Shown here: one piece after another, positions 19,838-44,280 of the stretch
Layout of the letters: the number at the start of each line of letters is the position of its first letter
Numbering within the stretch: position 1 is the stretch's first letter
From: Lachnospiraceae bacterium
Lineage (GTDB): Bacteria; Bacillota; Clostridia; Lachnospirales; Lachnospiraceae
Direction: 5' to 3'
DNA length: 64,000 nucleotides
NCBI GenBank assembly: GCA_014804345.1
Contig: JAAUZZ010000007.1
Coordinates: forward strand, 45,936-109,935
Translations under genes and position numbers: made by a program
The notes under the pieces: generated by a model
What the model saw: the letters and a program-made list of their open reading frames with translations, nothing else
The model's database searches: none
What the model was told of the DNA's origin: nothing

Positions 19838-19863
19838 TTTATGCGACGTCGCATAAATTTTTC
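19837..19863 (+). repeat. TATGCGACGTCGCATA palindrome, copy 1 (terminator-like)
   Basis: A perfect 22 bp palindrome (19837-19858) starts on the last base of the initiator stop codon and is followed by T residues. It can fold as a hairpin with an ACGT loop. It lies 30 bp before the next gene. Confidence 0.75.
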
Positions 19864-25458: not shown

Positions 25459-28353
25459 ATGGCTTATGTTAATATAACAAAAGATTTTTCGGAAGTCAGA
25501 AAAGTAATACCGGGCATAGGGCTTACCAAAAGGCAGCTCATAGGCTTTGCAGCGGGAGCTGTAGTAGGTCTGCCCGTGTTCTTCTTTTTTAAATGGGTTT
25601 TGGGCTTCGATTTAATGATTGATGTATTTGGTTTTGCGCTGGCAGCCGCACCGGTAATCATCCTGATAACAGTGCAAAAAAACGGTATGTATATGGAAAA
25701 GCAGGTACGTTTCTGGTATGAAACAAATTTTATCAGGAATACAGACCGACCGTATGCGACCAACAATATTTACAGTCTTATGAAGAAAGAAGAGGAACTG
25801 GAGAAGGAGGTGGAACGGATCTTGTTTAAAGGGAAAACGAAAGGAGAAATTAAGGAGATTAAGGAGAAAGGGGAAACAAGCCAGATTGAAATCGGCAAAA
25901 AAAAGCTGACGATCCCAATGACCGGACGGATTGACAAAAACACCAAAAAAGAATTGGAGAAAGCAGTAAAAAAAGCAAAACTCAAAGGCGATATTCCCGA
26001 GTCAGCGCAGGATACGATACAGTATAAAGTTCCGTATCCTGACGGGATATTTGAGTCTGATGACGGATATTTCACGCAGACAATAGCCTTTGAAGACATT
26101 ACATACCAGCTTTTGGATAATGAGCCCAAAAACATACTTTTCGAATGGTGGTGCAAGCTGATCAATTATTTTGAACCGGAAGTGCATTTTCAGTTCAACT
26201 ATGGAAACATGGAGATCGATAAAGATGAATATTCCAAGGATTTTAAAATCCCGTTCAGGGAAGACGCATTTAACATTGTGCGTAAAGAATACTCGGACAT
26301 GCTTATCAACCAGTTTTCCAAAGGAACAAATAACCTGAAAAAAGAGCGTTATCTGACATACGGCATAAAGGCTGCGGATTATAAGACTGCAAAGCTCAAG
26401 CTCGGAAAGATAAACAAGCAGCTTGAGAAAAATTTCAGGAAACTTAATTGTAAGGCGCATATAATGGACGGATACGAACGTCTGCATCTGCTGTTTCGAC
26501 TGTTTCATCCGGCTGCAAAAGAAAAATTCATGTGGAACTTTGACATGCCTGTGGGCACGGGACTTTCAAGCAAAGATTTTATTGCGCCGAGCAGCTTTTG
26601 CTTTAAGAGCGGTCCCGAACTGAATGCGTCAAGGTATTTTAAGGTAGGCGAGCGCATTGGCGCTGTAAGCCATATCAAGATCTTTGCCTCAGACATGGAA
26701 GACAGGATCATTGCAGATATCTTAGGCATGGACAGTAACGTATGGATTTCAATCCATGCGGACGCTATGCTGAGAAAAAAAGCACTGGATTATGCAAAAG
26801 ACAACATAACGGACATAGACGGAATGATCATTAACGAACAGAAAACAGCGGTACATTCCGGATATGACATGGACATTCTGCCACCGGACTTAAAAATGTA
26901 TCAGGATGCAGCAAACAAGTTATATAAGGATATACAACGCAAAGATGAAAATATGTTCAATACAACGATTACGATAGTGCAGACGGCATCAACGCGTAAG
27001 GAGCTTGAGGATAACATCTTTGAGCTTAACGGCATCCTGAATAACTATCAATGCACGCTCATCCGTCTTGACAACCGCCAAGAGCAGGGATATATGAGCG
27101 CAATGCCGCTTGGAAACAACAGCATCGAAACGGTGAGAACTTTTACGACCACAGATATGGCGATATTCATTCCTTTTACAACAAAAGAATTGTATACGCA
27201 GAACGGGCAATATTACGGCATGAATTCGCTAAGCAACAGTGTCATTACTGTGAATCGTAAAGATCTTGTCAATCCCAATGGTCTTGTGTTCGGAATGCCG
27301 GGATTTGGTAAGACATTTATGATCAAGAGGGAAATATTAGATGTGTTTTTAAAAACAGAAGATGACAGGTTTATCATCGACCCTGAAGGAGAGTACAAAT
27401 GGCTGGTCAAGCTTCTCAAGGGGCAGATCATTGAAATCGCCCTGAATTCCCAGGTGTATATAAACCCTATGGAGATCAACCTTTTTGCGGAAAACGATAA
27501 TGACAAGGATTACAACCCGATCTCTGCAAAATGCAGCTTTATCGTATCGATGTGTGAGCTGATACTTGGCAACAGATCGGCATTGGGAAAAAAAGAGGTA
27601 GCAGTAATCGATGAGGCATGTAAGAGGATATATTACCGATTTGCTGAAAATCCGGTTCCCGAAAACATGCCAATTCTGGGGGATCTGCACAATGAACTGC
27701 AAAATGGTTTTGAAGGTGAAAAGAAAATGATAGGGCGTGATCTTGCCATAGCATTATCACGATATGTCACAGGGTCATTGTCCTATTTTAACCACCGTTC
27801 CAATGTCAACATCAATGAAAGGCTTGTATGTTTTGACTTAAAAAATATGGACAGCAATCAGAGAGATCTTACAATGCTGATAATACAGGAGAGCATATGG
27901 GACAGGGTGGCTCTGAACCGGGAAAAAGGAAAATATACATGGGTTGACATTGATGAATTCCATCTTCTTCTGAGAGAGCCTTTGACGGCAAGCTATTCCG
28001 TGGAAATATGGAAAAGATTTCGTAAATGGGGTGGCATACCGACCGGCATCACACAGAATATCAAAGACCTGTTCCGCTCACCGGAGATACAGAATATCCT
28101 AGACACCACAAATTTTATAGCGATGCTAAACCAGTCAGGAGATGATGCAAGACTTCTGGCGGAACATCTTGATCTGAGTGAGGAAGAGGAAGGGTACATC
28201 AAGTCCGGAGAACCCGGAAAAGGGCTTTTGTGGGTAGAAGGAATTAAAATCCCGTTTGAAGATAATTTCCCTAAGAATACTATATGCTATAAGGTTATGA
28301 CCACAAAACCGGGAGAATCGATCAAAGAAAAGAGAAAGAAAAATGCATCATAA
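25459..28353 (+). CDS. PrgI-VirB4 fusion, type IV secretion ATPase
   Basis: The 964-residue protein has residues 1-85 resembling PrgI (VNITKDFSEVRKVIPGIGLTKRQ followed by two membrane segments), the VirB3-like subunit that is a separate gene in many systems. A Lys/Glu-rich linker with short tandem repeats (about 130-180) follows, then the VirB4/TrsE ATPase: Walker A GMPGFGKTF near residue 612, FIIDPEGEYKWL, Walker B VDIDEFHLLL near 830 and GITQNI. VirB4 powers assembly and transfer through the mating channel. GGGGG precedes the ATG. Confidence 0.92.
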   Translation: MAYVNITKDFSEVRKVIPGIGLTKRQLIGFAAGAVVGLPVFFFFKWVLGFDLMIDVFGFALAAAPVIILITVQKNGMYMEKQVRFWYETNFIRNTDRPYATNNIYSLMKKEEELEKEVERILFKGKTKGEIKEIKEKGETSQIEIGKKKLTIPMTGRIDKNTKKELEKAVKKAKLKGDIPESAQDTIQYKVPYPDGIFESDDGYFTQTIAFEDITYQLLDNEPKNILFEWWCKLINYFEPEVHFQFNYGNMEIDKDEYSKDFKIPFREDAFNIVRKEYSDMLINQFSKGTNNLKKERYLTYGIKAADYKTAKLKLGKINKQLEKNFRKLNCKAHIMDGYERLHLLFRLFHPAAKEKFMWNFDMPVGTGLSSKDFIAPSSFCFKSGPELNASRYFKVGERIGAVSHIKIFASDMEDRIIADILGMDSNVWISIHADAMLRKKALDYAKDNITDIDGMIINEQKTAVHSGYDMDILPPDLKMYQDAANKLYKDIQRKDENMFNTTITIVQTASTRKELEDNIFELNGILNNYQCTLIRLDNRQEQGYMSAMPLGNNSIETVRTFTTTDMAIFIPFTTKELYTQNGQYYGMNSLSNSVITVNRKDLVNPNGLVFGMPGFGKTFMIKREILDVFLKTEDDRFIIDPEGEYKWLVKLLKGQIIEIALNSQVYINPMEINLFAENDNDKDYNPISAKCSFIVSMCELILGNRSALGKKEVAVIDEACKRIYYRFAENPVPENMPILGDLHNELQNGFEGEKKMIGRDLAIALSRYVTGSLSYFNHRSNVNINERLVCFDLKNMDSNQRDLTMLIIQESIWDRVALNREKGKYTWVDIDEFHLLLREPLTASYSVEIWKRFRKWGGIPTGITQNIKDLFRSPEIQNILDTTNFIAMLNQSGDDARLLAEHLDLSEEEEGYIKSGEPGKGLLWVEGIKIPFEDNFPKNTICYKVMTTKPGESIKEKRKKNAS

Positions 28354-28382
28354 AATCTTATGCGATGTCGCATAAGATTTTT
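28353..28382 (+). repeat. TATGCGAYGTCGCATA palindrome, copy 3 (terminator-like)
   Basis: An inverted repeat with a single central mismatch (GATGTC instead of GACGTC) starts on the last base of the VirB4 stop codon and runs into TTTTTT. It lies directly before the AGGAGGTG of the next gene, so it could act as an attenuator. Confidence 0.75.
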
Positions 28383-28398
28383 TCAGGAGGTGAGAAAC

Positions 28399-30780
28399 TT
28401 GAGCCAACAATTGTCACCTAAAAACAGAGGACAAGCATTGGATAATGGGAATAACAAAAACGTCAGTAATAGCAGTAATAGCGCATATCATCAGCTTAAT
28501 ACACAGCATAACACAGCTCAACAGTTTAGGAGCCCGGTTTCTGAACAACAGCGCAGCGAATATAGCAGTGATTCTCAGCGACAAATACTTACTAATTTTC
28601 AGCAATCATTCAATGAACAGAGAGGACTGTATACAGAACAGGCATTCAATAATTATGAGCAGCAACAGGATAGCGTCAATGTTATACCTCAATCTCAGGA
28701 AAAACCTCAATATTATGACTATGAAAAAATTATTGATGTATCTTTTGATGAGGAAAGTTTTAAACGGTATGTGGATGATGATTTTGAACGGTATGCGGAA
28801 AGATTAAGCACAGGACGCGTTGTTTCTGACTCGACTTCCAATAATCCTGCAAATAACATGGCTTTCTCAGATAAAAGACAAAAAATCATAACAGAAGCTG
28901 AAATGCCGCTTTCAGGACAGAGCAAAGACAGCGCGGAAAAAGGGAAGGAAAAATATAAACGTCTATCTGTTAATGCCAATAAATCCGAACGTTTGAAGAA
29001 TGATGACAGAACTGAAAAAGGCAATGTCGATCCAAGACTGAAGGAAGATAAGACGGAAAAGCGTATATCCACTGATAATAAATCCGGGCGTTTAAAAAAT
29101 AATGAGAGCGGCGGGCGTTTGCATGAGCATGATGAATCTGACAGGAGTGATGAGAAAAAAGACAAAAAACGTGACCTTGAATTCAAAGAACCACCGAAAC
29201 GAACAATATTTGAAGAAGGAAAAGATTTTTATACTGACGGTGACAGAAGAGTCCAGTTTGTGCGCGCCAAAGGTGAAGCAGAATTAAAAACTCTTCAGAA
29301 ACAGACAAATAAAAAATATAACAAGCAGGTTGCAGAACAGGATCGAAAAGAATTAAAAAACAGGATCAAGGGAAGACTGATTTTTTCAAACATAAAATCA
29401 TTGTACGATGATGAAAAAATCGAAAAAGATGAAACCGCGGCAGATGTTTCCAAAGCGTTAAAAAAAGGAGGAAGAGCGACTGCATTCATTCTGAGAAACA
29501 ATCAGCGGGATCTCCGAAACATGTATAGTGAGTATGGAAAGCTCAAGCACTCAATCAAGAGACAGCAGTATCATATCACGAAGATGGAACGGCTTGATAA
29601 CAAAGAAATACGTCAGAAACAGCGTAAGTATGTAAATGAAGCTACCACAAAAGAAGAAAAACGGCGCCGAAAAAAAGAAATGCAGAAGGTGCACATTGAA
29701 CGCGAAGGAAATTTTGTAAGACGCACACAAAACCAATTTAAAATGGCTAAGCGGTCAGTGAAGTACAAAAGCAGCAAAGTTAAGAGGGCGATGACAACAG
29801 TGGCTGCTGTGGGAAGCATATTAGGCGTATGTATGCTGTCAGGCGTTATAATTCTGCTCGTAATATTATGCGCAGGACAGGGAATGGCGGATTATTACGC
29901 TGAAGCGGTTGTGCAAACCGGATATGACACTATGACAGACGCTACAGAGTATTATAAAAACCTCGAAACGGATCTGGAGGAATATTTATCCAACAGATCA
30001 TCTCTTGAATCTGAACTAAGATCCGAGCATGGAAGCGATATATATGAATTTAAGTATAATATCTGCGCCTTTGGTTTCAGCGCAAATACGATCGTTGCGT
30101 ATCTTGGAGCTAAATATAACGAATTTGAACTCAATGATATCGTCAAAGAAGATCTAAAAGATGTATTTCAACAAATGTATGTTTTAAACATATATACAAG
30201 GATGGAAAACCGAAGGATAGATGATGTCGATGAGGAAAAGAAAATATGCTATGTGACGTTAAGGAGGACAGAACTGGAGGAAGTTGTTGAAAGCAGACTG
30301 ACGGAAGATCAGCTCAAATTATATGAATCATATAAATTGACAACCGGAGGACAACAGGTATACGGTCCTGTAATGCGTGAAAACTGGACAAATCTTATCA
30401 GCAGCAATTACGGTGACAGAATTCACCCGATCACAAAGGTAAGAACAACCCATAAAGGCGTAGACATCGCAGTTCCAACAGGCACAAAGCTGTATTCCGC
30501 CGTGAAAGGAACCGTTACGGTAGCTCATTATTCCGATACAGCGGGGAATATGGTGACTATTAAAAATGATACAGGATGGACAGTGACATTTATGCATATG
30601 AACAGCATTGCGGTATCTGTCAATCAAAAAGTTGAGCGCGGAGATTTTGTTGGATATAGCGGAAACACAGGAAATTCCACGGGACCACACCTGCATTTAC
30701 AGGTAAATGACGCTAATGGAAATACTGTGAATCCGATTTTTATAATTCCTCAAACCTGCGCTGTTGTCAATGATGAATAG
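28399..30780 (+). CDS. Conjugation-associated M23 peptidase (cell-wall hydrolase)
   Basis: The product has 793 residues. The first 150 are Gln/Asn/Ser-rich; residues 150-480 are highly charged with repeated KSERLKNDDR/KSGRLKNNES-like units and coiled coil; a membrane segment follows (SILGVCMLSGVIILLVILC, about 473-495); the extracellular end is an M23/LytM endopeptidase with HKGVD near 685 and HLHL near 764. Such proteins open peptidoglycan for the mating channel. The start is TTG 28399 because AGGAGGTG at 28385-28392 lies 6 nt upstream; an in-frame ATG at 28360 is inside the palindrome. Confidence 0.88.
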   Translation: MSQQLSPKNRGQALDNGNNKNVSNSSNSAYHQLNTQHNTAQQFRSPVSEQQRSEYSSDSQRQILTNFQQSFNEQRGLYTEQAFNNYEQQQDSVNVIPQSQEKPQYYDYEKIIDVSFDEESFKRYVDDDFERYAERLSTGRVVSDSTSNNPANNMAFSDKRQKIITEAEMPLSGQSKDSAEKGKEKYKRLSVNANKSERLKNDDRTEKGNVDPRLKEDKTEKRISTDNKSGRLKNNESGGRLHEHDESDRSDEKKDKKRDLEFKEPPKRTIFEEGKDFYTDGDRRVQFVRAKGEAELKTLQKQTNKKYNKQVAEQDRKELKNRIKGRLIFSNIKSLYDDEKIEKDETAADVSKALKKGGRATAFILRNNQRDLRNMYSEYGKLKHSIKRQQYHITKMERLDNKEIRQKQRKYVNEATTKEEKRRRKKEMQKVHIEREGNFVRRTQNQFKMAKRSVKYKSSKVKRAMTTVAAVGSILGVCMLSGVIILLVILCAGQGMADYYAEAVVQTGYDTMTDATEYYKNLETDLEEYLSNRSSLESELRSEHGSDIYEFKYNICAFGFSANTIVAYLGAKYNEFELNDIVKEDLKDVFQQMYVLNIYTRMENRRIDDVDEEKKICYVTLRRTELEEVVESRLTEDQLKLYESYKLTTGGQQVYGPVMRENWTNLISSNYGDRIHPITKVRTTHKGVDIAVPTGTKLYSAVKGTVTVAHYSDTAGNMVTIKNDTGWTVTFMHMNSIAVSVNQKVERGDFVGYSGNTGNSTGPHLHLQVNDANGNTVNPIFIIPQTCAVVNDE

Positions 30781-30791
30781 GAGGCATTTAC

Positions 30792-31085
30792 TTGAAAAAT
30801 CTGGAAAAACTTGAAGAACATTATCACAAAGAGCTGGCGCTTGCGGAAAAGCATAAGAAAAACGCAGAGGATATAAAAAAGGAAATTGAGCTTTTAAAAG
30901 GATCGCAGATCAATCAAAAAATCAAATCCTTGAATATTAACGGAGATGAATACAAAAAGCTGATGGATCTTCTTGATAACAAAAAAGAACTGATGGAGGC
31001 AATAGAGATTGTATCCGGTAATAAAGGGAAAGGGAAAGGGGATGATAACCTTGATACCGAAACAGAAAAAACGACTGAGCATTAA
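30792..31085 (+). CDS. DUF4315-like small coiled-coil protein
   Basis: The 97-residue protein has a coiled-coil N-terminal half (LEKLEEHYHKELALAEKHKK, then DIKKEIELLKG) and a second block IKSLNINGDEYKKLMDLLDNKKE, which fits DUF4315, found between the peptidase and CD1107 genes in Clostridial ICEs. It uses a TTG start with AGGAGG 7 nt upstream, like the preceding gene. It overlaps the start of the next gene by more than 30 bp. Function unknown; likely a cytoplasmic assembly factor. Confidence 0.7.
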   Translation: MKNLEKLEEHYHKELALAEKHKKNAEDIKKEIELLKGSQINQKIKSLNINGDEYKKLMDLLDNKKELMEAIEIVSGNKGKGKGDDNLDTETEKTTEH

Positions 31086-32535
31086 AAATGTAATAGTCGT
31101 TATTGTTGTTATTGCTGTTATTGCATCTTTAATATTGCTGTATTTAATGCTGGAAAATAGCGCTAGAAATGCATCGGCATATGAGAAAACGCTTCTTGCG
31201 TCTATCTCAGACAGTATAAGTATACCGACAGAGGAGCCGGCGGTATTTGAAGAAAAAAACACGGAAGCAGATACAGAAATTTATACAGAAGATACAGAAG
31301 GTGAGGACGAAGTTTATGCGACGTCGCATGAACAGGAACCTGTCACACAAGACATTGTCAGAATATCAGATATGTATGCAGTTAAAGGAGATCTGACGCT
31401 GAAAAGCTATTATCCTGATGCGACTCAATATACATGGGAACTGTATAACACGGAGGCTAAATGTTGGGACGTTCTTGATGCCAGAACCGCCTGCGATGAA
31501 CTGTACAGACAGGTATCTGTTGTATCTTTGAATTTAAGTGAGGATATAATGATACGTTGCAGCATAGAAAGAGATGGCGCTGATGAAAAAATATTGGATA
31601 TCGCTTCCGTAAAATGTATCAAATCTATTGTAAACGTAACTGCTACGGACGAAAAATTTAAAACAGGATCGGGGCATTGGCTTTCCAGCCGCGATATTCC
31701 GGTAAAGGTCACTTATCATGACAATAGCAGCGAAATCTTAAAAGGATTATACGGACTGGTATTTGTAGACAAGCTTGAGAGCAGTGAAATTACATATTCG
31801 GATACAGGAAATGTCATTGAAACAGTAACGACAATCAATACGGAATGCGAATACAGCTATATAGATACCGGTGAAAAGGAGTTTGTAATCAGATACAGAG
31901 ATCAGGATAAGTCGTATGACACTAAATTGACGGTCGTGAGCGCTGATATAGATCCACCCGTTATTTCAGCAGTTTCACTTAGCGATTTTACGATAAAAAC
32001 CGTTGATGAGCCTGTAACAGTGGAAGTGACGATATCTGCGGAAGATAATGAAACACCTTATCCCGCGCTTGAATATGCATTTCTTCCGCAAGGAGTGGAT
32101 CCGGAAGATACCGACTGGATAGCGAAACCCAAATTTGAAAAAGATATCGATCAAAATGGAATATGGGTAGCATACTGCCGGGACAGGAAAAAAAATATTG
32201 CAATGTTTGAGGAAAAAATAATAGTGGTAGACCAGAAAGGACCGGAGCTTGCATTGACGCTTAAAAATACAAACTGGTGCGCGGCAAATAAAATAATTGC
32301 CAACGCCAAAGATGAGCTGCCTGTGACTTATTTGTTTACTTGTCGCGAAACAGGTGAGAACAGCGGCTGGACTGATAAAAACGAGTATGATGTAACCCAA
32401 AATGGAACATGGGAGGTGCAAGCGAGAGATGAGGTGGGAAATATAACAGTTATGGATATTGCAGTAAGCAACATTGATGCGCAGATGCCAATAATAAAGG
32501 GAATCACTGAAGGAGAACAAATATATGAAAACTAG
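31042..32535 (+). CDS. Membrane-anchored extracellular protein with Ig-like domains
   Basis: The product has about 497 residues: a short basic N-terminus (PKQKKRLSIK), one membrane segment (VIVVIVVIAVIASLILLYLML), an acidic linker, then about 400 extracellular residues with beta-sandwich-like blocks ending in phrases such as NGIWVAYCRDRKKN and NGTWEVQARDEVGN, typical of bacterial Ig-like folds. The start could be ATG 31042 or TTG 31051; GGGG at 31038-31041 better fits the TTG. The palindrome family is embedded at 31312-31333, coding YATSH. It lies between secretion-system genes and CD1107, so it probably is a surface part of the mating apparatus. No named family recognised. Confidence 0.7.
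   Translation: MITLIPKQKKRLSIKNVIVVIVVIAVIASLILLYLMLENSARNASAYEKTLLASISDSISIPTEEPAVFEEKNTEADTEIYTEDTEGEDEVYATSHEQEPVTQDIVRISDMYAVKGDLTLKSYYPDATQYTWELYNTEAKCWDVLDARTACDELYRQVSVVSLNLSEDIMIRCSIERDGADEKILDIASVKCIKSIVNVTATDEKFKTGSGHWLSSRDIPVKVTYHDNSSEILKGLYGLVFVDKLESSEITYSDTGNVIETVTTINTECEYSYIDTGEKEFVIRYRDQDKSYDTKLTVVSADIDPPVISAVSLSDFTIKTVDEPVTVEVTISAEDNETPYPALEYAFLPQGVDPEDTDWIAKPKFEKDIDQNGIWVAYCRDRKKNIAMFEEKIIVVDQKGPELALTLKNTNWCAANKIIANAKDELPVTYLFTCRETGENSGWTDKNEYDVTQNGTWEVQARDEVGNITVMDIAVSNIDAQMPIIKGITEGEQIYEN
31312..31333 (+). repeat. TATGCGACGTCGCATA palindrome, copy 4, inside a coding region
   Basis: A 22 bp palindrome with one mismatched pair (perfect over the central 14 bp, 31316-31329) is read in frame as Tyr-Ala-Thr-Ser-His in the linker of the Ig-like protein. 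Confidence 0.75.
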
Positions 32536-33652
32536 GAAATTGAACATTATGCTCTCTACATTTATGCTTATGATTTGTCTGATCCTTATGCTGGATTCAG
32601 AAGCATTTGCAGGAAGCGGTGAAGAGTATATTACTATAACAGTAGACGCAGAAGACGATAATGAAGGATTGATGTATTCAATAGACTCAACGGATGAAGC
32701 GGCATTTACCAGTTCGAATACATTCACAATTCCTGCGGGGACGTCCCACACAATATATGTAAAAGATGCAGCGGGAAACGTTACTTCACAGGATTATTCA
32801 CCGAGTTATCTATCGCCACTTGAACTTGACGAGAATGTACAGGATATAAATATTGACGTTGAAATAGGAAATAAGGATTACAGCAGCATTCTTGATCCAG
32901 CATCTTCTCCGGCAGAACCGGGGGAAGGAACAATGCATGATAGGACAGTCACTGACGGAAGCGATGACGGAGAAAAGGTTTTTTACACAGTCACTACGGC
33001 AGAAGGAGATACTTTCTATATGGTGATTGACAAAAAACAAAACACTGAAAATGTATATCTTCTAAACACGGTTACACGGTCTGATCTTGCAGCGCTTGCA
33101 ACAGACGATGATGGAACAGAGCAAAAAGACGGAAAGGAAGAAGATAATCTTCTTACCGCGCTTCAAAATGAAAAGGAAGCTGATAGCGTCCCTGATAAGA
33201 TAAATTCATCATCAAAAGAAAAAAGCGGCATGTCTTCCAATATTATAATAGTTGTGTTTGTTCTCATTATAGCCGGTGGGTATTACTACATAAAAATTTA
33301 CAAAAATAAGAAAGAGCAGCAAATGGATGTAATGGACGCTATGGATATGAATGATTTTGCCGCTGAAGAGGCTGAGGACGAAGGAGACGAGGTGGATTTC
33401 GATATTGCCGATGATGAGAAACAAGCTTACCTAGACAATCTAATTAATGATGGCGATGATGAGGAAAGTGATTTATATGATCAGGATCCGGAAAATTATA
33501 CAGCGGAAAGTTATACAGATCTTAATGAGGAGGAAAGTGTGGGTATTGACAACGATGAAAGTCATGTGGATCCTGATAACGATGATAATCCGACAATAGA
33601 TGAAGAATTTACAGAGTATGATCCGGATCTCGATGCAGAAGAAGATGAATAG
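32525..33652 (+). CDS. CD1107 family (DUF4366) mobile element protein
   Basis: The 375-residue secreted and anchored protein has a signal peptide (MLSTFMLMICLILML, about residues 9-23, ending near AFAGSG), a short Ig-like part, then the CD1107/DUF4366 core (TVTDGSDDGEKVFYTVTTAE, FYMVIDKKQNTENVYLLN). A second membrane segment lies near 240-258 (NIIIVVFVLIIAGGYYYIK) and a strongly acidic tail follows. The domain is characteristic of ICE transfer operons. It overlaps the previous gene by 11 bp and AGGAG precedes the ATG. Its exact task is unknown. Confidence 0.85.
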   Translation: MKTRKLNIMLSTFMLMICLILMLDSEAFAGSGEEYITITVDAEDDNEGLMYSIDSTDEAAFTSSNTFTIPAGTSHTIYVKDAAGNVTSQDYSPSYLSPLELDENVQDINIDVEIGNKDYSSILDPASSPAEPGEGTMHDRTVTDGSDDGEKVFYTVTTAEGDTFYMVIDKKQNTENVYLLNTVTRSDLAALATDDDGTEQKDGKEEDNLLTALQNEKEADSVPDKINSSSKEKSGMSSNIIIVVFVLIIAGGYYYIKIYKNKKEQQMDVMDAMDMNDFAAEEAEDEGDEVDFDIADDEKQAYLDNLINDGDDEESDLYDQDPENYTAESYTDLNEEESVGIDNDESHVDPDNDDNPTIDEEFTEYDPDLDAEEDE

Positions 33653-33664
33653 GAGGAATGATAC

Positions 33665-34771
33665 ATGAGTTTTATAAAAAAATATAAAATCATATTACTG
33701 GCATGTGGCATATTAGCCGCTATATTAGTGTTATTTATGGTATCAAACGTAGTTGGAAAAGAGGATCCTGCCGACTTTGAATATGACAGTATGATAGAAG
33801 CCAAACTTGCTGAAAATGTAAAAGCTTATCTGGATGAATATCTCATTCTTGAGAATCACGATAAGAACATAATCGCGAATGAAGCAGTTGAAAATTACCG
33901 CATCATAATGTCATCAGGAGCAGAAAACATAACGGACGATCATACTGCCGCAATAAACCGGAATATTATGCAGGCACTTGACAGCTACACAACAGATACT
34001 CAAATCACATATGAAGATATGCAGGCGCTCGCAAGCGGAATAAGCAAAATCATTCTTGATACTATACTGATGCAAATAGAAGAAAGCGGCATGTCAAAGC
34101 TTGATGCATATAAGGAAGAGTACATTATTCTTACAGACAGCCTACAGTCACAGATTGATGAATTAAAGAAAAAAAGCACTTCGGTTAATATAACAGCGCA
34201 TATTAAAAATAATGATGCTGAGATTGAGAATGCAAAGAATGAAATATACAGTAACGTCAGGAAAGAGCTGTCATCGATGCAGAATACTATCAGCACAATA
34301 TCTGACGGAGAAGATGGCAAAGACGGTAAGGACGGAAAAGACGGTATAGACGGAAAAAACGGGACTAATGGCATAAATGGCAAAGACGGTAAGGACGGAC
34401 GCGACGGTATAGACGGAGCAAACGGAAAAAACGGGACTGATGGCGTAAATGGCAAAGACGGAAAAGACGGCAATGACGGAAAAGACGGTGAAGACGGTAA
34501 AGATGGGCGCGACGGTATAGACGGAAAAGACGGCGAAAATGGCAGGGATGGAATGGATGGAAAAACTACGTTTATAGCATATGCGAATGACCAATATGGA
34601 ACCGGATTTTCTTTGACTCCGACAGAAACCACAAAATATATAGGAACATGTATTACAGAAGAAACCATTCAACCGTCAAAAGCATCTGAATACACCTGGC
34701 AGCAATACAGGACGTATATCATAACGTCTGCGACGGATGAAAATAAAGTAACCACACTATATATTCAATAA
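33665..34771 (+). CDS. Collagen-like surface fibre protein with phage-tail-like C-terminal domain
   Basis: The 368-residue protein has a membrane anchor at about 8-30 (IILLACGILAAILVLFMV), then helical, coiled-coil-prone sequence to about 210. About 28 uninterrupted Gly-X-Y triplets (about residues 216-300), mostly Gly-X-Asp or Gly-X-Asn such as GKDGKDGRDGID, follow, and then a compact C-terminal domain (TFIAYANDQYGTGFS, KYIGTCITEE, SEYTWQQYRTYI). That end resembles modules following collagen repeats in phage tail proteins (YAND-GTG, YIG, YTW). It probably forms a trimeric rod displayed by the donor cell. AGGAGG precedes the ATG. Confidence 0.85.
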   Translation: MSFIKKYKIILLACGILAAILVLFMVSNVVGKEDPADFEYDSMIEAKLAENVKAYLDEYLILENHDKNIIANEAVENYRIIMSSGAENITDDHTAAINRNIMQALDSYTTDTQITYEDMQALASGISKIILDTILMQIEESGMSKLDAYKEEYIILTDSLQSQIDELKKKSTSVNITAHIKNNDAEIENAKNEIYSNVRKELSSMQNTISTISDGEDGKDGKDGKDGIDGKNGTNGINGKDGKDGRDGIDGANGKNGTDGVNGKDGKDGNDGKDGEDGKDGRDGIDGKDGENGRDGMDGKTTFIAYANDQYGTGFSLTPTETTKYIGTCITEETIQPSKASEYTWQQYRTYIITSATDENKVTTLYIQ

Positions 34772-34784
34772 ATGGGGGGAAGGC

Positions 34785-36443
34785 ATGAATAAGAAATTAA
34801 CATTTAAAAGTACAAAAAGTATAATGCTGTACACAGCGGCAATTTTAATTGTAGCGGCTATTATAGTCTTTATGGGACTCTTTATGTGGCGAAATAAAAA
34901 TCAATTTGTCACTGAAAAAGTGGTTCAAACATATCTGGAAGATTATTATGGGGAGATAACACACGAAATGAAAGTGTTGTCGAAAAATATGTCAGATGAA
35001 CTTGACAGCAGCCTTGCCGTAATGAATACGAGAGAGCTTACGCAAGAAGAATTACAGCAGCTTCTCGATGCAGTAAACAGCGAACTTTCGCAGGCATCGT
35101 ATAATATTTCATCTGAAGAGATTAACAAGATGTCAAATCAGATCGTGAAAAAAGTTCTTGAAGTTAAAACAGAAGATGCTGAACTTTTAAAGGAATATGC
35201 AATGCAGCTTGATGAACTTTCAGAAAGGGTCGGGATCCTCGAAAAAAAGATACTGCTTTTTAAGAACTATACTGAAAATGACATAAAAAACATAGCAAAA
35301 TCCCTCGATATTACAGAAACACAGGTTATTGCGTTAATTAAAAAATATTCTACAGTAAGTTTAGACAGTCTTGCGAATGAACTTGGTATTTCCGTGGACG
35401 AGCTTAAAAAGCTGATTGTAGAAAGCAGGGATTATACGGATTCATTTTACATTAAACTTTCAAAACAGCTTGACGTTTCCGCCGCAGATCTAAAAAAACT
35501 GACCAAACGGGTAGAAAATAATACTGATGCGATAGATGATCTGGCAAAGAAACTGGGGATCACGTCTGAACAGTTATATGCAGCAATTTTTGAGTCAGGT
35601 GAAATGACAGAAAATGAAATAAAGCAGCTTGCAGCATTGCTGAATAAGAATGTTGCGGAACTCAGCAGTATGATAGACAACAACAAAGAATTGACCGGCT
35701 CCGGAATTGAGGAGCTTGCCAAGGAATTAAGTTTGTCAAAAGAAGAAATTTACAAGTATTTCAGTACATTAGATGCATCGGTCAGTGAGATTAGGCAGCT
35801 TGTCGAAATGAGCGATGATGAATTACGCGCATTGGCAGAAAAAATGAATATAGAAGATGATGAACTACGTTCCCTTATAGGTTCGCTTGAAAATGAATTG
35901 ACGGATAATTATACGGAACTAAAAAATACGGGAGTAACACGGGACACTCTTGCAGAAGCGCAGGAGAGCATACGCCAAAGTCTTGCGGCTGAGGCAGATG
36001 AGAGAGAGGCATCAGTTAAATCAGCTATTGATTTATTGACTGATGCGATAGAGCTTTCCGAGGGTGAGGACGCAAAAAGATTACAAGAAGCAAAAGATGA
36101 ATTGCAAATGGCATTAAATAATGACATTGGAAATATCGAAAACGCGCTTAATAACGCCAATGCACAGGTAAATTCATCTTTAAATAATCTTGATGTAAAA
36201 ATAGACAATCTTAACAGCGCGATCACAAAAGTAAATAATTCAATCGATGAGATGATAACCAAAATAACAAATAACAGCAATAACATTGTCAGCCTTGGAG
36301 AACAAATGAAAGAAGGGCTGGATGCTGAAACAGAGAAAAGAGAGGCTGCAATAAACGGACTTGGAAGAGCCAAAGCAGAGATACATTATTTTAGTGATAA
36401 CGGTGTGCCGACGCTAACAATAGACAATGTTATCAGGGATTAG
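34785..36443 (+). CDS. Membrane-anchored coiled-coil protein with 28-29 residue repeats
   Basis: The 552-residue protein has a membrane segment at about 13-35 (IMLYTAAILIVAAIIVFMGLF) and then a long helical ectodomain. From about residue 165 to 370 it consists of some seven units spaced 26-29 residues apart, each starting L-A-x-x-L-x-I/V and continuing D/E-x-L-x-x-L-I, for example LANELGISVDELKKLI at 196 and LAKKLGITSEQLYAAI at 253. Further coiled coil follows (NNDIGNIENALNNANAQVN) and a short end RAEIHYF-like block. It lies between the two fibre genes and is probably a stalk or scaffold of the same surface structure. Family not recognised. Confidence 0.75.
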   Translation: MNKKLTFKSTKSIMLYTAAILIVAAIIVFMGLFMWRNKNQFVTEKVVQTYLEDYYGEITHEMKVLSKNMSDELDSSLAVMNTRELTQEELQQLLDAVNSELSQASYNISSEEINKMSNQIVKKVLEVKTEDAELLKEYAMQLDELSERVGILEKKILLFKNYTENDIKNIAKSLDITETQVIALIKKYSTVSLDSLANELGISVDELKKLIVESRDYTDSFYIKLSKQLDVSAADLKKLTKRVENNTDAIDDLAKKLGITSEQLYAAIFESGEMTENEIKQLAALLNKNVAELSSMIDNNKELTGSGIEELAKELSLSKEEIYKYFSTLDASVSEIRQLVEMSDDELRALAEKMNIEDDELRSLIGSLENELTDNYTELKNTGVTRDTLAEAQESIRQSLAAEADEREASVKSAIDLLTDAIELSEGEDAKRLQEAKDELQMALNNDIGNIENALNNANAQVNSSLNNLDVKIDNLNSAITKVNNSIDEMITKITNNSNNIVSLGEQMKEGLDAETEKREAAINGLGRAKAEIHYFSDNGVPTLTIDNVIRD

Positions 36444-36456
36444 GAGCGTGATAAAA

Positions 36457-36663
36457 ATGAAAATGAAAAGAACAACACGAATTAATGTGCTCATGGTGGT
36501 AATGACTCTGATATTTATTATGGTGTTTTCTATTACGGGGAGAGCATCAGATAGGTTTAAATCTCAGGGAAAAATTGTATTTAACAATAAAACCGTGTCA
36601 ACGAAAGATGATGTAATTTTTGATGCAGGTGATTTTGAAACGCTTGCTGAAGTATGCAAATAG
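36457..36663 (+). CDS. Short secreted protein, partial paralogue of the next gene
   Basis: The product has about 68 residues: a signal peptide (INVLMVVMTLIFIMVFSITGRAS) followed by only about 37 mature residues. These (KSQGKIVFNNKTVSTKDDVIFDAGDF) closely match the mature N-terminus of the following protein (KSQGKIVFSNNTEDTADDVVFDASDF). It looks like a tandem duplication that kept only the N-terminal module, or a small subunit. ATG 36457 is served by AGGAG at 36441-36445; ATG 36463 is an alternative. It is 6 bp before the next gene. Confidence 0.7.
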   Translation: MKMKRTTRINVLMVVMTLIFIMVFSITGRASDRFKSQGKIVFNNKTVSTKDDVIFDAGDFETLAEVCK

Positions 36664-36669
36664 GAGGTA

Positions 36670-38160
36670 ATGGTAATGATAAAAATCAAGAAAAGCAATA
36701 TAATAACAGCGATAATATGCGCAATTTTCATTTCGGCGGCATCATTCTATACCGGAGTTACAGCAGCTACCGAAAATTCCATATCGTATAAATCCCAAGG
36801 GAAAATTGTATTCAGCAATAATACGGAAGACACGGCGGATGACGTGGTTTTTGACGCAAGCGATTTTACAACGATCAATGACATGGTGGTATCCGGAAAG
36901 AAACTTGTCGGTACGGAACTTAACAAATATCCCTCCGTCAATATGGATCTAACTACAATACCCGATTTTAGCGAACTTGCGATGGCGGTAGACACACTTA
37001 CGGATGACGCTACGGCAGACAGTAACATGATCCTAAAAGATGCTACGGCATATGTCAAAGGGGCTAAAATAAAAGGCGCTATTCCAAGCAAAGGCGAGGC
37101 ATTATATACTCCGGGACGCGCTGATCAGACGATCGCATCCGGACAATATCTAAACGGCACACAGACTATAAAAGGCGATACTAATCTCACATCTGCGAAC
37201 ATTGTGGAAGGAATGACAATATTTGGCGTAACCGGCACGGCAAAGATTGAGTCACACATAGTTGAAACTAATAGATCCGTTTCCCTTTCCGATATTTCCG
37301 GAACAATAACCCCGAGCAGTGGAAACAATGCGATGGAGCAGGTTACATATTCTATATCAGGAGTAGACGCGGATAAAATTGTATCAGGTCAGAGTATTTT
37401 GGGGGTTGCCGGCACAGTCATAGAAGAAAGCCATACAGCGCTGGCTGCAAGTGATATAGTTGAAGCTTCAGGCACAGCATTAAAGGTTTTGGAGTCAGGT
37501 AAAACATACAAAATTCCATCTGGTAAATATACAAATGGAGAGGTATATCTTAGCGCTGAAAGTATAAATGAGAATATTGTTAAAAGCTACTTGGAAGATC
37601 CAGTGCATATTAGTAATTCTAATTCTGCTACCATATCTGTAGGTATACCGTCGGATGATTGTATAGTTGTATTTGCACATCCAGAACGACCAAACAATAC
37701 ATTATCAGAATTAGACGTCCCAACAGGAGCAAATATTATATTTTCTAATGTAACTCCTGAGATTCCAAGTTCTGCTATAAGATATTACATAGTTAAAGTT
37801 ACAGGCAATAAAAATAAAGTTCTTGGTTTTAAATTTACAAATATTGGAACTAATCAACTTTACGTTCGTTATGTAGTGTGTGATATTAATATTTCGTCTG
37901 CATCAGTTGTATCAGCAGACTCCACAGTAAATCTTACTAGAGATAAATACTATATAATTGTGCGCAACGTGGATAACAGAAGTTGGTATCATGATTTTTT
38001 TTCCGGCGCTGTAGTACAATATTATGATATGCCGTATGCAAGTACTTATTTTATGTATTATAATATGGCAAACATATCTGTCATCAAGGCACTGGAAAAC
38101 TCTACAATTGAAACAAAATCTACCGGAAACTATGACCAACACATAGTATTATTAAATTAA
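36670..38160 (+). CDS. Secreted phage tail-fibre-like protein
   Basis: The 496-residue protein has a signal peptide (about 1-33) and the N-terminal module shared with the preceding gene. Residues about 115-195 resemble phage tail proteins: ATAYVKGAKIKGAI, DQTIASGQYLNGTQTIKG, ANIVEGMTIFGVTGT, with a second weaker copy of the last motif (DKIVSGQSILGVAGT) near 235-250. The last 200 residues form a beta-rich domain in visibly more AT-rich DNA, as if exchanged separately. In phages such modules sit at the tail tip. Here, next to a collagen-like rod in a conjugation operon, a role in binding recipient cells is inferred. Confidence 0.8.
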   Translation: MVMIKIKKSNIITAIICAIFISAASFYTGVTAATENSISYKSQGKIVFSNNTEDTADDVVFDASDFTTINDMVVSGKKLVGTELNKYPSVNMDLTTIPDFSELAMAVDTLTDDATADSNMILKDATAYVKGAKIKGAIPSKGEALYTPGRADQTIASGQYLNGTQTIKGDTNLTSANIVEGMTIFGVTGTAKIESHIVETNRSVSLSDISGTITPSSGNNAMEQVTYSISGVDADKIVSGQSILGVAGTVIEESHTALAASDIVEASGTALKVLESGKTYKIPSGKYTNGEVYLSAESINENIVKSYLEDPVHISNSNSATISVGIPSDDCIVVFAHPERPNNTLSELDVPTGANIIFSNVTPEIPSSAIRYYIVKVTGNKNKVLGFKFTNIGTNQLYVRYVVCDINISSASVVSADSTVNLTRDKYYIIVRNVDNRSWYHDFFSGAVVQYYDMPYASTYFMYYNMANISVIKALENSTIETKSTGNYDQHIVLLN

Positions 38161-38226
38161 TAATTAAATAAATTATAGTATAACAAGGATCATGAGCAGC
38201 CAAATTTTGAAAGGAAAAGATATTAA

Positions 38227-40326
38227 ATGAGTAAAGTATTAGTTATCGCGGAAAAACCTTCCGCGGGGCGTGACATAGCCCGAATATTAGGAGTTAAGGA
38301 GGACAAGGGCTCTTACATGGAAAATGGCAGCTATATCGTATCGTGGGCTGTTGGACATCTTGTGGAGCTTAAAGATCCTGAAGATGTTGACGAGAAGTAC
38401 AAAAAATGGAATACAGATAATATTCCGCTTCCCGCCGAAAATGGTCTTAAAATAAAGAAAGGAGCAGAGGCACAGTTTAATGTCATTAAAAAACTGATCG
38501 CACGGAATGATATAGATTATCTGATCAATGCCGGCGATGCAGGGCGTGAAGGACTGCTTATCCAGTCGTGGATTTACAGAATGGCAGGAAACAGGCATCC
38601 GGTAAAAATACTCTGGTCATCGTCATTGACAGATGAGGCAATAAAAAATGCAATGAACAGGCTTCATGATGACGCTGAAGAAGAATTTGTATCTCTGCTT
38701 GAAGAAGCGGAAACAAGAGCTATTGCGGATCAGGCGTATGGGTATAATTACACAAGATTGCTGACCTGTCTGTATTCAGACGGTCAGGTGCTTTCTTATG
38801 GTCGATGCCAGACGCCGCTTCTTAATCTTATCGTTAAACGTGATATGGAAAACGAAAATTTCAAGTCGCAGCCATACTGGAGCATATCTGTCAAATATGA
38901 AGAAGGTTTTGAAGCGAGCGAGATAGGCGATGATGGAAAAGTAATAAAGTATATGGAAAAAGCAACAGCCGAACAATCAGCAGAATACTGTACACAAATT
39001 GGCAAGGCTTCTGTAAAAAGCTGCGTTCGTGAAAAAAAATCCAATAAGGCGCCGGCTCTTTATAACTTAGCTGAGTTACAGAGTGTAATAGGTAAAAAAT
39101 ATGGATACACTCCGGATAAAACGCTGCAACTTGCACAGAACCTTTATGAAAAACACAAAATATTGTCATATCCCAGAACAGACAGCCGATATCTGTCAAC
39201 GGACTTATACAACGAAGTGCGTGAGCATACAGAATGCTGTGCATTTGGAAAGTTTAAAGAATATATAGACAGAATAGATTACTCCAACTTTTCTATGGAT
39301 AAGACATATTTTAATAACAATAAAGTATCCGATCACCATGCGCTGATCCCGACCATCAATAAAAAAATGCCGGATGCATATGCAGAACTCACGGAAGAAG
39401 AGCGTAACGTTTTCGATGAGGTAGTTGTCAGTTTTATATCAATTTTCTATCCGCCTTATGAATATGAGGCGGCAGAGATCATTTCAACGATCGGCAACAG
39501 ACAATTCAAATCTTCGGGAAAAACATTAATTGCATTAGGATACAAAGAAGCAGTACAGAAACTGTTAAAAGGAAGTACAGATGAAAATAAACAGGAAGGG
39601 CAGAACATACCTGATTTGAGAGAAGGCATGGAGATTAAGCTTGAGGAACTTGCTATTAACGAAGACAAGACAAAACCTCCCGCCAGATATAATCCAGGCA
39701 ATATCATAAAGCTCATGGGTAAATATAAAATAGGGACGTCCGCAACAGCCGCCGGAATTGTTCAAAATCTTATTAACAGAGGCTTTATAAAACTTGAAAA
39801 GAATAAATACATATCAACGGAGCTTGGACGCAAGCTCCTTTCTCTTATTCCGAATGTGCTCAAGGCGCCTGAAATGACAGTCTGCTTTGAAGAAAAGTTA
39901 CAGAAAGTAAATTCAGGAGAGATGACAAAGCAGCAGTTTATTAATGACATTATAGACGAAGTGAAAACCAATAAACAAAATTTCCTTCAGAACATTCCAA
40001 AAGAGAAGCTTGGATCCGCCGCATCTATCGGCGTGTGCCCTGCATGCGGCAGAAAGATCCGCGAAAATCAACGGAGCTGGTACTGTATCGGATATAATCA
40101 AGATCCGCCGTGCAATTTTTCAATATGGAAAGAAATATCCGGGAAAAAGATATCTTCCTCTGCGGCAAAGAAACTTATCACAAATAAAAAATCAGATCTG
40201 ATTAAAGGATTTACTGGTAAAACTGGAAAATTATTTGATGCATATCTGGTACTGCAAAAAGATGATGAAACAGGTAAATATAAAATAACTTTTGAATTTC
40301 CCACGAGAAAAGGAGGTACAAAATAA
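38227..40326 (+). CDS. topB: DNA topoisomerase III
   Basis: The 699-residue type IA topoisomerase, of the form carried by many conjugative elements, relaxes and decatenates DNA during transfer and replication. The TOPRIM domain is at the start (VLVIAEKPSAGRDIA, DAGREG), YGRCQTP marks the clamp region and the active-site tyrosine lies in LSYPRTDSRYL near residue 314. A C-terminal zinc-binding module (CPACGRKIRENQRSWYC) is present. AAAGGA precedes the ATG and the stop overlaps the next ATG. Confidence 0.93.
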   Translation: MSKVLVIAEKPSAGRDIARILGVKEDKGSYMENGSYIVSWAVGHLVELKDPEDVDEKYKKWNTDNIPLPAENGLKIKKGAEAQFNVIKKLIARNDIDYLINAGDAGREGLLIQSWIYRMAGNRHPVKILWSSSLTDEAIKNAMNRLHDDAEEEFVSLLEEAETRAIADQAYGYNYTRLLTCLYSDGQVLSYGRCQTPLLNLIVKRDMENENFKSQPYWSISVKYEEGFEASEIGDDGKVIKYMEKATAEQSAEYCTQIGKASVKSCVREKKSNKAPALYNLAELQSVIGKKYGYTPDKTLQLAQNLYEKHKILSYPRTDSRYLSTDLYNEVREHTECCAFGKFKEYIDRIDYSNFSMDKTYFNNNKVSDHHALIPTINKKMPDAYAELTEEERNVFDEVVVSFISIFYPPYEYEAAEIISTIGNRQFKSSGKTLIALGYKEAVQKLLKGSTDENKQEGQNIPDLREGMEIKLEELAINEDKTKPPARYNPGNIIKLMGKYKIGTSATAAGIVQNLINRGFIKLEKNKYISTELGRKLLSLIPNVLKAPEMTVCFEEKLQKVNSGEMTKQQFINDIIDEVKTNKQNFLQNIPKEKLGSAASIGVCPACGRKIRENQRSWYCIGYNQDPPCNFSIWKEISGKKISSSAAKKLITNKKSDLIKGFTGKTGKLFDAYLVLQKDDETGKYKITFEFPTRKGGTK

Positions 40327-42795: not shown

Positions 42796-44280
42796 ATGGC
42801 AACAAGTAAATTAAAACCAATCAAAAAAACGCTTAGCAAGGCAATTTCGTATATTATAGATCCAAATAAAACTGCCGCCGGAAGTCTTGTATCTTCTTTT
42901 GGCTGTGGCATAGGAACGGCTGATATTGAAATGCAAATGACCGCGCAAAAAGGAAATGGAATTGGTGACCGAGTAGCATATCACTTGATGCAGTCATTTT
43001 CTCCGGATGATGATATAACGCCTGAAAAAGCACATCAGATAGGAATGGAATTTGCTCAAAAAGTCCTAAAAGGAAAATTTGAATTTGTTATCGCAACCCA
43101 TATTGATAAAGACCACATACATAATCATATTATTTTCAATGCCGTAAATTTTTACGATCACAAAAAGTATCATACCGGAGTATGGGAAAAAGAGAAGAAA
43201 CGGATCCGAAGGATAAATGATGATCTGTGTAAAAAAAATAATTTATCTGTAATTGAAAACACATCAGGAAGGAAAGGATATGAATGTCACGAACGCAAGA
43301 AAAGCAGCTCATCTAAAAGATCGTGGAAAGATATAATTAGAAATGATATTGATGAGGTAATCAAAATTGCAAAATCTTTTGATGAATTCCTGCAAATTAT
43401 GGAGTCGGAAAAAAACTATAAAATTGCAAGACGGGGCAGCTTCTTACGAGTGCATCCGCCGGGATATGATGATGACACATATTACAGACTTAGCAAAAAA
43501 TTAGGTGAAGCATATACTGAGGAAGCGATCAGGGACAGGATTGAACATCCGGGAAATGCATATAAATACCAAACAATAATTTCCAAAGGAACCAGCAAGC
43601 GATATGTATTCAAACCTAATCCAAATAAAATAAATCATATAATTGATATTTCCAAAAATAAAAAAGCGAAAGAGTCATCACATTATGAACAGGCATTGGT
43701 AAGGAGCAATATTGATACACTTAATAGAACAATGAATTTCCTTATAAAACATAATCTATCGACACCAAATCAATTTGCAGATTACTATAATTCAAAAATG
43801 GAAGAATATGAACTGCTACGAAAAAGTGTCAAATCAAGCGATAACAGACAGTTAGCCTGTTCGGAAAAAATCAAATTTTTGCAGAATTATAAAAAGTATC
43901 ATAATCTTCATTCTGCTGCAATGCGTGCAGGAACTAAATCCAATTTTTACAAAGAACACGTAAATGAGATTATATTATTTGAGTCATCAAAGATGTATTT
44001 TGAACGCATTGATGAAAATCCGGATGAAATGAACCTTGCCGATTTATTTGCAAAATATAAAGAGATTAAGCAAGATAAACTGGACGATGAGAAACTGTAT
44101 GAAGCAATACAAGCAGAAATAAAAGAACTTGATGTGATCCGGAAAAATGTGGAAGATACACTTAAAATAGAACTTATTCATAAAGAAGACGAGGCAGAAC
44201 AGATAAGACGACAGAGTGAAGAGAATGCAAGAAATACTGAACAGGATAAAAATGATAAAAGCGGAGATATTGGCTATTGA
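42796..44280 (+). CDS. MOBP-type relaxase/mobilisation nuclease
   Basis: The 494-residue relaxase nicks oriT and pilots the transferred strand. The N-terminal domain shows the three family motifs: the early Tyr region (SYIIDPNKT), RVAYHLMQSFSP, and the metal-binding histidine triad in THIDKDHIHNHIIFN near residues 101-115. The C-terminal 200 residues are helical and charged and may contact MobC or the coupling protein. It follows mobC and is preceded by AAGAGG. The end is followed by a hairpin-rich non-coding block. Confidence 0.92.
   Translation: MATSKLKPIKKTLSKAISYIIDPNKTAAGSLVSSFGCGIGTADIEMQMTAQKGNGIGDRVAYHLMQSFSPDDDITPEKAHQIGMEFAQKVLKGKFEFVIATHIDKDHIHNHIIFNAVNFYDHKKYHTGVWEKEKKRIRRINDDLCKKNNLSVIENTSGRKGYECHERKKSSSSKRSWKDIIRNDIDEVIKIAKSFDEFLQIMESEKNYKIARRGSFLRVHPPGYDDDTYYRLSKKLGEAYTEEAIRDRIEHPGNAYKYQTIISKGTSKRYVFKPNPNKINHIIDISKNKKAKESSHYEQALVRSNIDTLNRTMNFLIKHNLSTPNQFADYYNSKMEEYELLRKSVKSSDNRQLACSEKIKFLQNYKKYHNLHSAAMRAGTKSNFYKEHVNEIILFESSKMYFERIDENPDEMNLADLFAKYKEIKQDKLDDEKLYEAIQAEIKELDVIRKNVEDTLKIELIHKEDEAEQIRRQSEENARNTEQDKNDKSGDIGY

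Follow-up and report, generated by a model that had tools for sequence, protein, structure and literature searches.

Gram-positive conjugation systems often carry LPXTG adhesins and some have no recognised adhesin, with few contact mechanisms listed so far; how elements without LPXTG adhesins contact and select their recipients is largely an open question (PMC12857230). The locus analysed here raises this question in a particular form, namely what a set of collagen-like, coiled-coil and phage-tail-like surface proteins does inside a conjugation operon. The window, meaning the whole 64,000-nucleotide stretch of Lachnospiraceae DNA that was analysed, comes from a source genome of 2.1 Mb that is 76% complete. 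The preferred reading, held at about even odds, is that the interval encodes an ICE-borne surface contact fibre with interchangeable tips that would act in mating.

Setting of the fibre genes in the ICE

The first part of the ICE encodes, in order, ParA, ArdC, VirD4, VirB6, a VirB4 ATPase with a fused PrgI (VirB3-like) N-terminus (25459..28353, + strand; Pfam PrgI 5e-13, TraG P-loop 2e-10), a CD1108-family/M23 peptidoglycan hydrolase of the mating apparatus (28360..30780, +; Pfam Peptidase_M23 2.5e-27), a DUF4315-like protein, a single-pass membrane protein that is Ig-like by reading only (31009..32535, +; transmembrane segment at residues 20-52), and a CD1107-family conjugation protein (32525..33652, +; Pfam CD1107-like 4e-20). 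These are followed by the four fibre genes (Col, CC, short, and TipS), topoisomerase III (38227..40326, +; Pfam Topoisom_bac 2e-100), which closes the fibre interval, a pentapeptide/LPD25 protein, MobC, the MobA/VirD2-type relaxase of the ICE (42796..44280, +; Pfam Relaxase 7e-37), and a large serine recombinase that is the probable integrase (50313..51884, +; Pfam Recombinase 5e-29, Resolvase 3e-19). CD1107 and CD1108-type proteins, VirB4, VirB6, VirD4, a MobA-type relaxase, and a recombinase were found in one element, which places it with the Tn1549/CTn-like (CD1107 group) ICEs, the match of the M23/CD1108-like protein to NCBIfam CD1108 (4e-10) being under the curated cut-off of that model. 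The backbone is that of Tn1549/CTn-type ICEs (CD1107, CD1108-like, VirB4, topoisomerase III, MobC, and relaxase), but among the other CD1107 ICEs sampled the collagen gene was found in genome G080 only.

The fibre genes are packed tightly on the + strand between CD1107 (end 33652) and topoisomerase III (start 38227), with 12 bases before Col, 13 before CC, 6 before TipS, and 66 before topoisomerase III; the CC and short genes overlap by 17 bases. Ribosome-binding sites (GGAGG or similar) were found upstream of Col, CC, and TipS. Separate transcription of the fibre genes is possible but not indicated, because promoter-like and terminator-like sites in the region were no more frequent than in shuffled sequence. 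Col and CC each have a single N-terminal transmembrane segment, and short and TipS have signal-peptide-like N-termini. No LPXTG motif was found in the four proteins, nor any LPXTG adhesin within the window. An earlier note on this DNA had described a conjugation operon carrying fibre genes, with four surface proteins between CD1107 and topoisomerase III that all have membrane anchors or signal peptides. Coordinates, strand, flanking conjugation genes, and N-termini bear out this description, and its proposal that the proteins replace the usual adhesins fits the absence of an LPXTG adhesin from the window.

Architecture of the rods and tips

Col (33665..34771, +; 368 aa) is composed of an N-terminal transmembrane anchor, a helical head (residues ~41-170), a collagen rod (215-301), a phage-tail-like tip (~300-350), and a terminal strand. 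It matched Pfam Collagen at E 1e-15, and residues 215-301 form 29 uninterrupted G-x-y triplets, which together with the N-terminal transmembrane segment mark it as a collagen-like surface protein. Its similarity to NCBIfam Scl was weak (59 bits against a cut-off of 325 bits) and confined to the collagen stretch. Scl1 and Scl2 likewise present a surface collagen rod with a distinct end domain, but they are LPXTG-anchored at the C-terminus, whereas Col is anchored at the N-terminus, bears its tip at the C-terminus, and scores far below the Scl cut-offs. A search of plasmids with the Col N-terminus gave no match.

The tip domain lies in the C-terminal stretch of Col (residues 298-368; 34556..34768, +), where the AlphaFold model is confident (pLDDT 84-89 for the tip, against a moderate ~75 for the head). 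With the collagen removed, tblastn linked the tip to a tail protein from Dulem virus 40 (2e-6) and, in Streptococcus phage APCM01, to the receptor-binding protein (1e-3). Proteins of some 1,060-1,300 residues, recovered with a Col profile, contain this domain too, often as tandem copies; in two of the genomes concerned, the protein is encoded immediately downstream of tape measure and Dit and has a match to PHROG 588 'tail fiber protein and host specificity'. Against a library of viral models, Col matched the folds of phage tail and host-specificity proteins, including the TP-J34 'host specificity protein', at a probability of 1.00 and in several cases at 1.3-3 A over ~50 residues. As most of Col has no counterpart in them, these fold matches have modest E-values (4e-4 to 1e-2). 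The fold search against PDB gave nothing below E 0.001, and its best matches track the helical head. The Col tip is a folded domain common to siphophage tail tip and host-specificity proteins, which prophages carry in the protein that follows tape measure and Dit, but here it caps a membrane-anchored collagen rod whose neighbours are conjugation genes, with no tail genes. Phage tail domains of this kind may be spacers or sugar-binding modules rather than specificity determinants.

Collagen and coiled-coil repeats might score against phage fibres through composition only; many PHROG matches to Col do sit on the collagen stretch, and the matches in a viral-contig scan were mostly limited to it. 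Such a fortuitous resemblance is highly improbable and was largely refuted by the tip-only searches, as the tip still matches phage proteins after removal of the collagen, with the fold probability given above, and TipS has no collagen yet matches proteins of prophage tail modules.

CC (34785..36443, +; 552 aa) has an N-terminal transmembrane anchor and a long repeat-containing coiled coil that finishes in a short strand-like motif. A motif of ~15 residues is present in four copies (shuffled sequences: mean 0.16, maximum 3). Matches of CC to helix-turn-helix families (DprA, homeodomain, phage regulators) and to a tape-measure N-terminus were put down to its repeated helical motif and discounted as artefacts. 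Short strand-like motifs close both Col and CC (TTLYIQ and TLTIDNVIRD; in relatives NTLKLFGCQ, TLYITQ, and NTLYLMPSGR). The profiles of the two proteins align at a probability of 83% from the membrane segment into the beginning of the helical head, which is no more than suggestive of their being paralogues. As Col and CC would reach outward from the carrier, they bear on a further alternative, in which phage-tail-like tips occupy or mask the carrier's own receptors and so block phage adsorption or incoming elements. The domains common to phage host-specificity proteins would suit such exclusion, but it is very unlikely, as masking the cell's own receptors needs no outward-reaching rods and no exclusion family was matched.

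The short gene (36427..36663, +) encodes a signal peptide and an SxGxI domain only, and its product is 71% identical in the related locus L101. TipS (36670..38160, +) begins with a signal peptide and an SxGxI domain, followed by a phage-tail-like centre (residues ~100-250) and a variable C-terminal domain (~300-496). The SxGxI domain common to the short protein and the TipS N-terminus spans ~45 residues with the pattern K-S-x-G-x-I-x-F ... V-x-F-D-A-x-D-(F/L), in which S, G, and D are invariant in 20 clade copies; it looks like a dock. The possibility that the short ORF is a degenerate TipS duplicate was rejected, as it is a separate gene in six relatives (L092, L094, L095, L097, L099, and L101) and is fused to the Tip in L098.

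The central region of TipS matched PHROG 38337 (E 1.9e-8) and proteins of ~200-330 residues in six other family genomes. One of these has a holin-like hemolysin and a tail-collar fibre protein as neighbours, and three adjoin phage proteins of unknown function; a plasmid-borne match stands after a tape measure and a phage tail protein. The SxGxI domain, by contrast, was limited to 3 of 250 family genomes (the window's, G080, and G060). The conserved N-terminal part is thus specific to this system, whereas phages share the TipS centre and the Col end. The C-terminal domain had no database match, and a viral-contig scan with TipS returned nothing. A structure model of TipS built from nine sequences was poor (pLDDT 39), so the C-terminal domain cannot be called a receptor-binding fold. 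The Tip proteins of L095 and L099 had no match in phages, which gives no sign that their variable ends are phage-like; the end of the L095 Tip had a match in 1 of 200 family genomes. No pilin family in Pfam or NCBIfam matched TipS.

The earlier reading of a collagen-like rod with a tail-like tip and of a repeat-containing coiled-coil protein agrees with these results, and the short secreted module it listed proves to be a conserved gene in its own right. Domains common to phage tails, as claimed there, were recovered in the Col tip by sequence and fold and in the TipS centre through prophage tail modules. The tail-fibre motifs ascribed to TipS hold for this centre, not for the system-specific N-terminal domain or the unmatched C-terminal domain. 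The structure check of the C-terminal domains suggested there gave a confident model and phage tail folds for the Col tip, and a poor model for TipS. The earlier interpretation is supported in part: its inference that the ICE took over phage modules implies a direction of transfer, whereas the matches establish that the domains are shared.

Related ICEs, tip exchange, and tip copies

Relatives were collected with a VirB4 scan of the genome collection, which gave 12 loci at 57-90% identity; L096, L102, and L103 were left out as partial or ending before the fibre interval, leaving nine informative loci and the window. Col follows CD1107 in 10/10 informative members of this one Lachnospiraceae ICE clade (VirB4 68-90% identical to that of the window), its conservation is comparable to that of the neighbouring T4SS genes, and every informative member has at least one SxGxI protein. 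CC is present in five of the ten (the window, L092, L101, L094, and L095). The order short then Tip is seen in the window, L092, L097, L099, L101, L094, and L095; in L098 both domains are in one protein, and L093 has two longer SxGxI proteins. The Col tip domain is single in the window's ICE and, by reading, occurs four times in L093. Relatives of the Ig-like membrane protein are kept at the same position (32-68% identical). CD1107 was found in 81 of 299 family genomes, among which G080 and the window's genome alone gave strong matches to the Col N-terminus. Many other CD1107 ICEs that were examined have topoisomerase III directly after CD1107 or after unrelated genes. The survey of relatives that the earlier note had called for finds the gene set conserved across the clade and the tips strongly and locally variable in two ICE pairs.

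The first pair, L092 and L101, is nearly identical in VirB4 (97% at the protein level), Col (99%), CD1107 (99%), and LPD25 (98%). At the DNA level they agree at 94-100% over the first half of CC, and mostly at 65-90% over its second half, the short gene, and TipS up to and including the central region; agreement drops to ~43-55% over the TipS C-terminal domain and is back at 97% where topoisomerase III begins. The variable tip of the window (37568..38160, +) is replaced by unrelated sequence in L101 (DNA identity 41-47%, against 61-78% with L092). In the second pair, L094 and L095, identity is 97% for VirB4, 92% for Col, and 89% for CC; the Tip proteins agree at ~90% in their first 120 residues but at 31-37% across most of the final 150. 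The pattern in both pairs looks like recombination-driven replacement of the tip on a constant body, since uniform drift would not leave the change so localised. Shufflon-type inversion is not indicated, as no inverted repeats were found in 36300-38400. A second mosaic spot in the operon is the M23/CD1108 gene, only 66% identical between L092 and L101 with neighbours at 96-99%.

These data also bear on the possibility that the proteins are structural parts of the mating channel, with Col and CC as wall-spanning spacers holding the secretion apparatus and the phage-like domains as generic trimerisation or carbohydrate-binding folds without a role in recognition. The presence of Col throughout the clade, its T4SS-like conservation, and the anchoring of the rods at the donor membrane would suit a structural part. 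We regard it as improbable, as it leaves unexplained the multiple tip copies, the absence of CC from half of the clade members, and the exchange of the TipS end for unrelated sequence between ICEs with 97% identical VirB4.

A contact fibre with interchangeable tips would also accommodate the copies in G080 (L043/L100/L109), where one tract-free SxGxI module is accompanied by four further copies. The tract-free copy and two more are in the interval, a fourth is after topoisomerase III, and a fifth is upstream of the ParA gene. Within their signal-peptide codons, the last four contain G-tracts of 10, 7, 6, and 6; as assembled, the start codon of each tract copy (L043 13246-14677 and 16879-17427; L109 5101-5697) is out of frame with the body, with the same offset in all. 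The simplest reading suggested by these tracts is slipped-strand on/off switching, that is, phase variation; programmed slippage or dead copies are possible. The tip genes of the other relatives and of the window showed no comparable G-tract.

Other features were observed in the related ICEs. Zeta-toxin-like proteins are encoded between Col and the tip copies of G080 (L043 9256-12780), the first matching Pfam Zeta_toxin at 5e-16. After the Tip gene, the ICE of L099 encodes a secreted transglutaminase-like protein with three S-layer homology domains (L107 4944-6989). In two ICEs (L106 6137-15233 and L108 2612-12618), topoisomerase III is split at ~residue 106, apparently by one and the same mobilizable element, which has a relaxase-like gene besides a serine recombinase, as read from the ORFs. 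The palindrome TGCGACGTCGCA is nearly restricted to this ICE clade, with window copies at 19842, 23255, and 31317. All three copies of its 14-base form in the window's genome are inside the ICE, and all 11 copies of its 16-base form in G080 are within one ICE-holding 44 kb stretch (C13:210030-254411); five of six copies in the L101 genome and eight of eight in the L095 genome are on the ICE contig, and the L093 locus also has copies. It could be a partition site, the ICE encoding ParA, or the operator of an ICE regulator.

Proposed function and occurrence outside ICEs

In the proposed mechanism, Col and CC would be membrane-anchored rods crossing the cell wall, with Col ending in its phage-tail-type domain. 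The short protein and TipS are predicted to be exported and probably dock through the SxGxI domain, either onto the rods or onto one another. Receptor binding would fall to the C-terminal domain of TipS as the exchangeable end, which recombination would swap from ICE to ICE; one relative would have multiplied its tips into copies with G-tract on/off switches. The fibre, presumably made together with the mating apparatus, would most likely attach the donor to recipients and shape recipient choice. This reading is argued for by the position inside the T4SS operon, the presence of Col in 10/10 clade members and of an SxGxI protein in every informative one, the narrow distribution of the SxGxI domain (3 of 250 family genomes), the domains common to phage tails in the Col tip and TipS centre, the tip-localised divergence in two ICE pairs, and the G-tract copies of G080.

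Known systems offer partial parallels. In IncI plasmids R64/TP114, the variable C-terminal end of a surface fibre, PilV with its shufflon, decides the recipient (PMC8213034, PMC9045228). TipS shares with PilV a variable C-terminus on a constant body, in a fibre encoded by a conjugative element, but PilV belongs to a type IV pilus of Gram-negatives and is varied by DNA inversion, whereas here the rods are collagen and coiled coil, and neither a pilin in the Pfam and NCBIfam searches nor inverted repeats in 36300-38400 were recognised. TraN of F-like plasmids is a mating-pair stabilisation protein whose recipient specificity is set by a variable tip carried on a constant body (PMC9246713), but it is a Gram-negative outer-membrane protein with many conserved cysteines and a different architecture. 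PrgB, the aggregation substance of pCF10, and related LPXTG adhesins are Gram-positive surface adhesins for mating (PMC12857230); PrgB is also encoded by a Gram-positive conjugative element, but it is wall-anchored through a C-terminal LPXTG sorting signal and has a polymer adhesin domain, whereas no LPXTG protein was found here.

An exchanged end on an otherwise constant rod and dock, with genes placed among those of the mating apparatus and with domains in common with phage host-specificity proteins, fits the same logic as PilV and TraN. The earlier note knew of no described system of this kind in this ICE group, and our search of open-licence papers likewise turned up no account there of collagen-like or phage-tail-like fibres, so that the fibre system appears undescribed so far. 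The fullest form of the proposal, to which we give somewhat less than even credence, is an undescribed Gram-positive conjugation fibre of anchored collagen and coiled-coil rods, in which interchangeable, partly phase-variable secreted tips sharing phage-tail domains decide which gut bacteria receive the ICE. A fixed rod with swapped tips across a gut ICE clade would be a direct test case for recipient range, and, if the proposal is true, the host-range parts of phages and conjugative elements would be linked as one shared pool.

Fibre genes were also found outside ICEs. On the G060 chromosome (L121 10578-13327), a CC-like protein, a short SxGxI-like protein, and a 439-residue Tip are encoded between the methionine aminopeptidase (map) and methionyl-tRNA synthetase (metG) genes, and the 19.5 kb examined contains no genes for conjugation. 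Because this triplet has no ICE nearby, the fibre is portable and can exist without conjugation, and a role beyond conjugation must be allowed. The triplet favours the alternative that the fibre is adhesion cargo of benefit to the host cell, which sticks the carrier to gut mucus, food particles, or neighbours and rides on the ICE in the conjugation operon. The phase-variable-looking copies of G080 would suit host-facing surface proteins, and collagen-like surface adhesins of the Scl kind, to which Col has its weak collagen-stretch similarity, are known colonisation factors. Cargo genes usually vary in presence and place, whereas Col is fixed in the clade among T4SS genes with no obvious promoter of its own, and the tip domains resemble phage parts that bind bacteria; adhesion cargo is accordingly a possible but rather unlikely account. 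The G060 triplet counts against the mating fibre, as does a plasmid-borne protein with the TipS motif, whose gene context is ambiguous. The latter is a 907-residue hypothetical protein of Butyrivibrio plasmid pCY360 (NC_014389.1 145485-148208; L148 4093-6816), 58% identical to the TipS motif over 71 residues, and the motif occurs at four places in the record.
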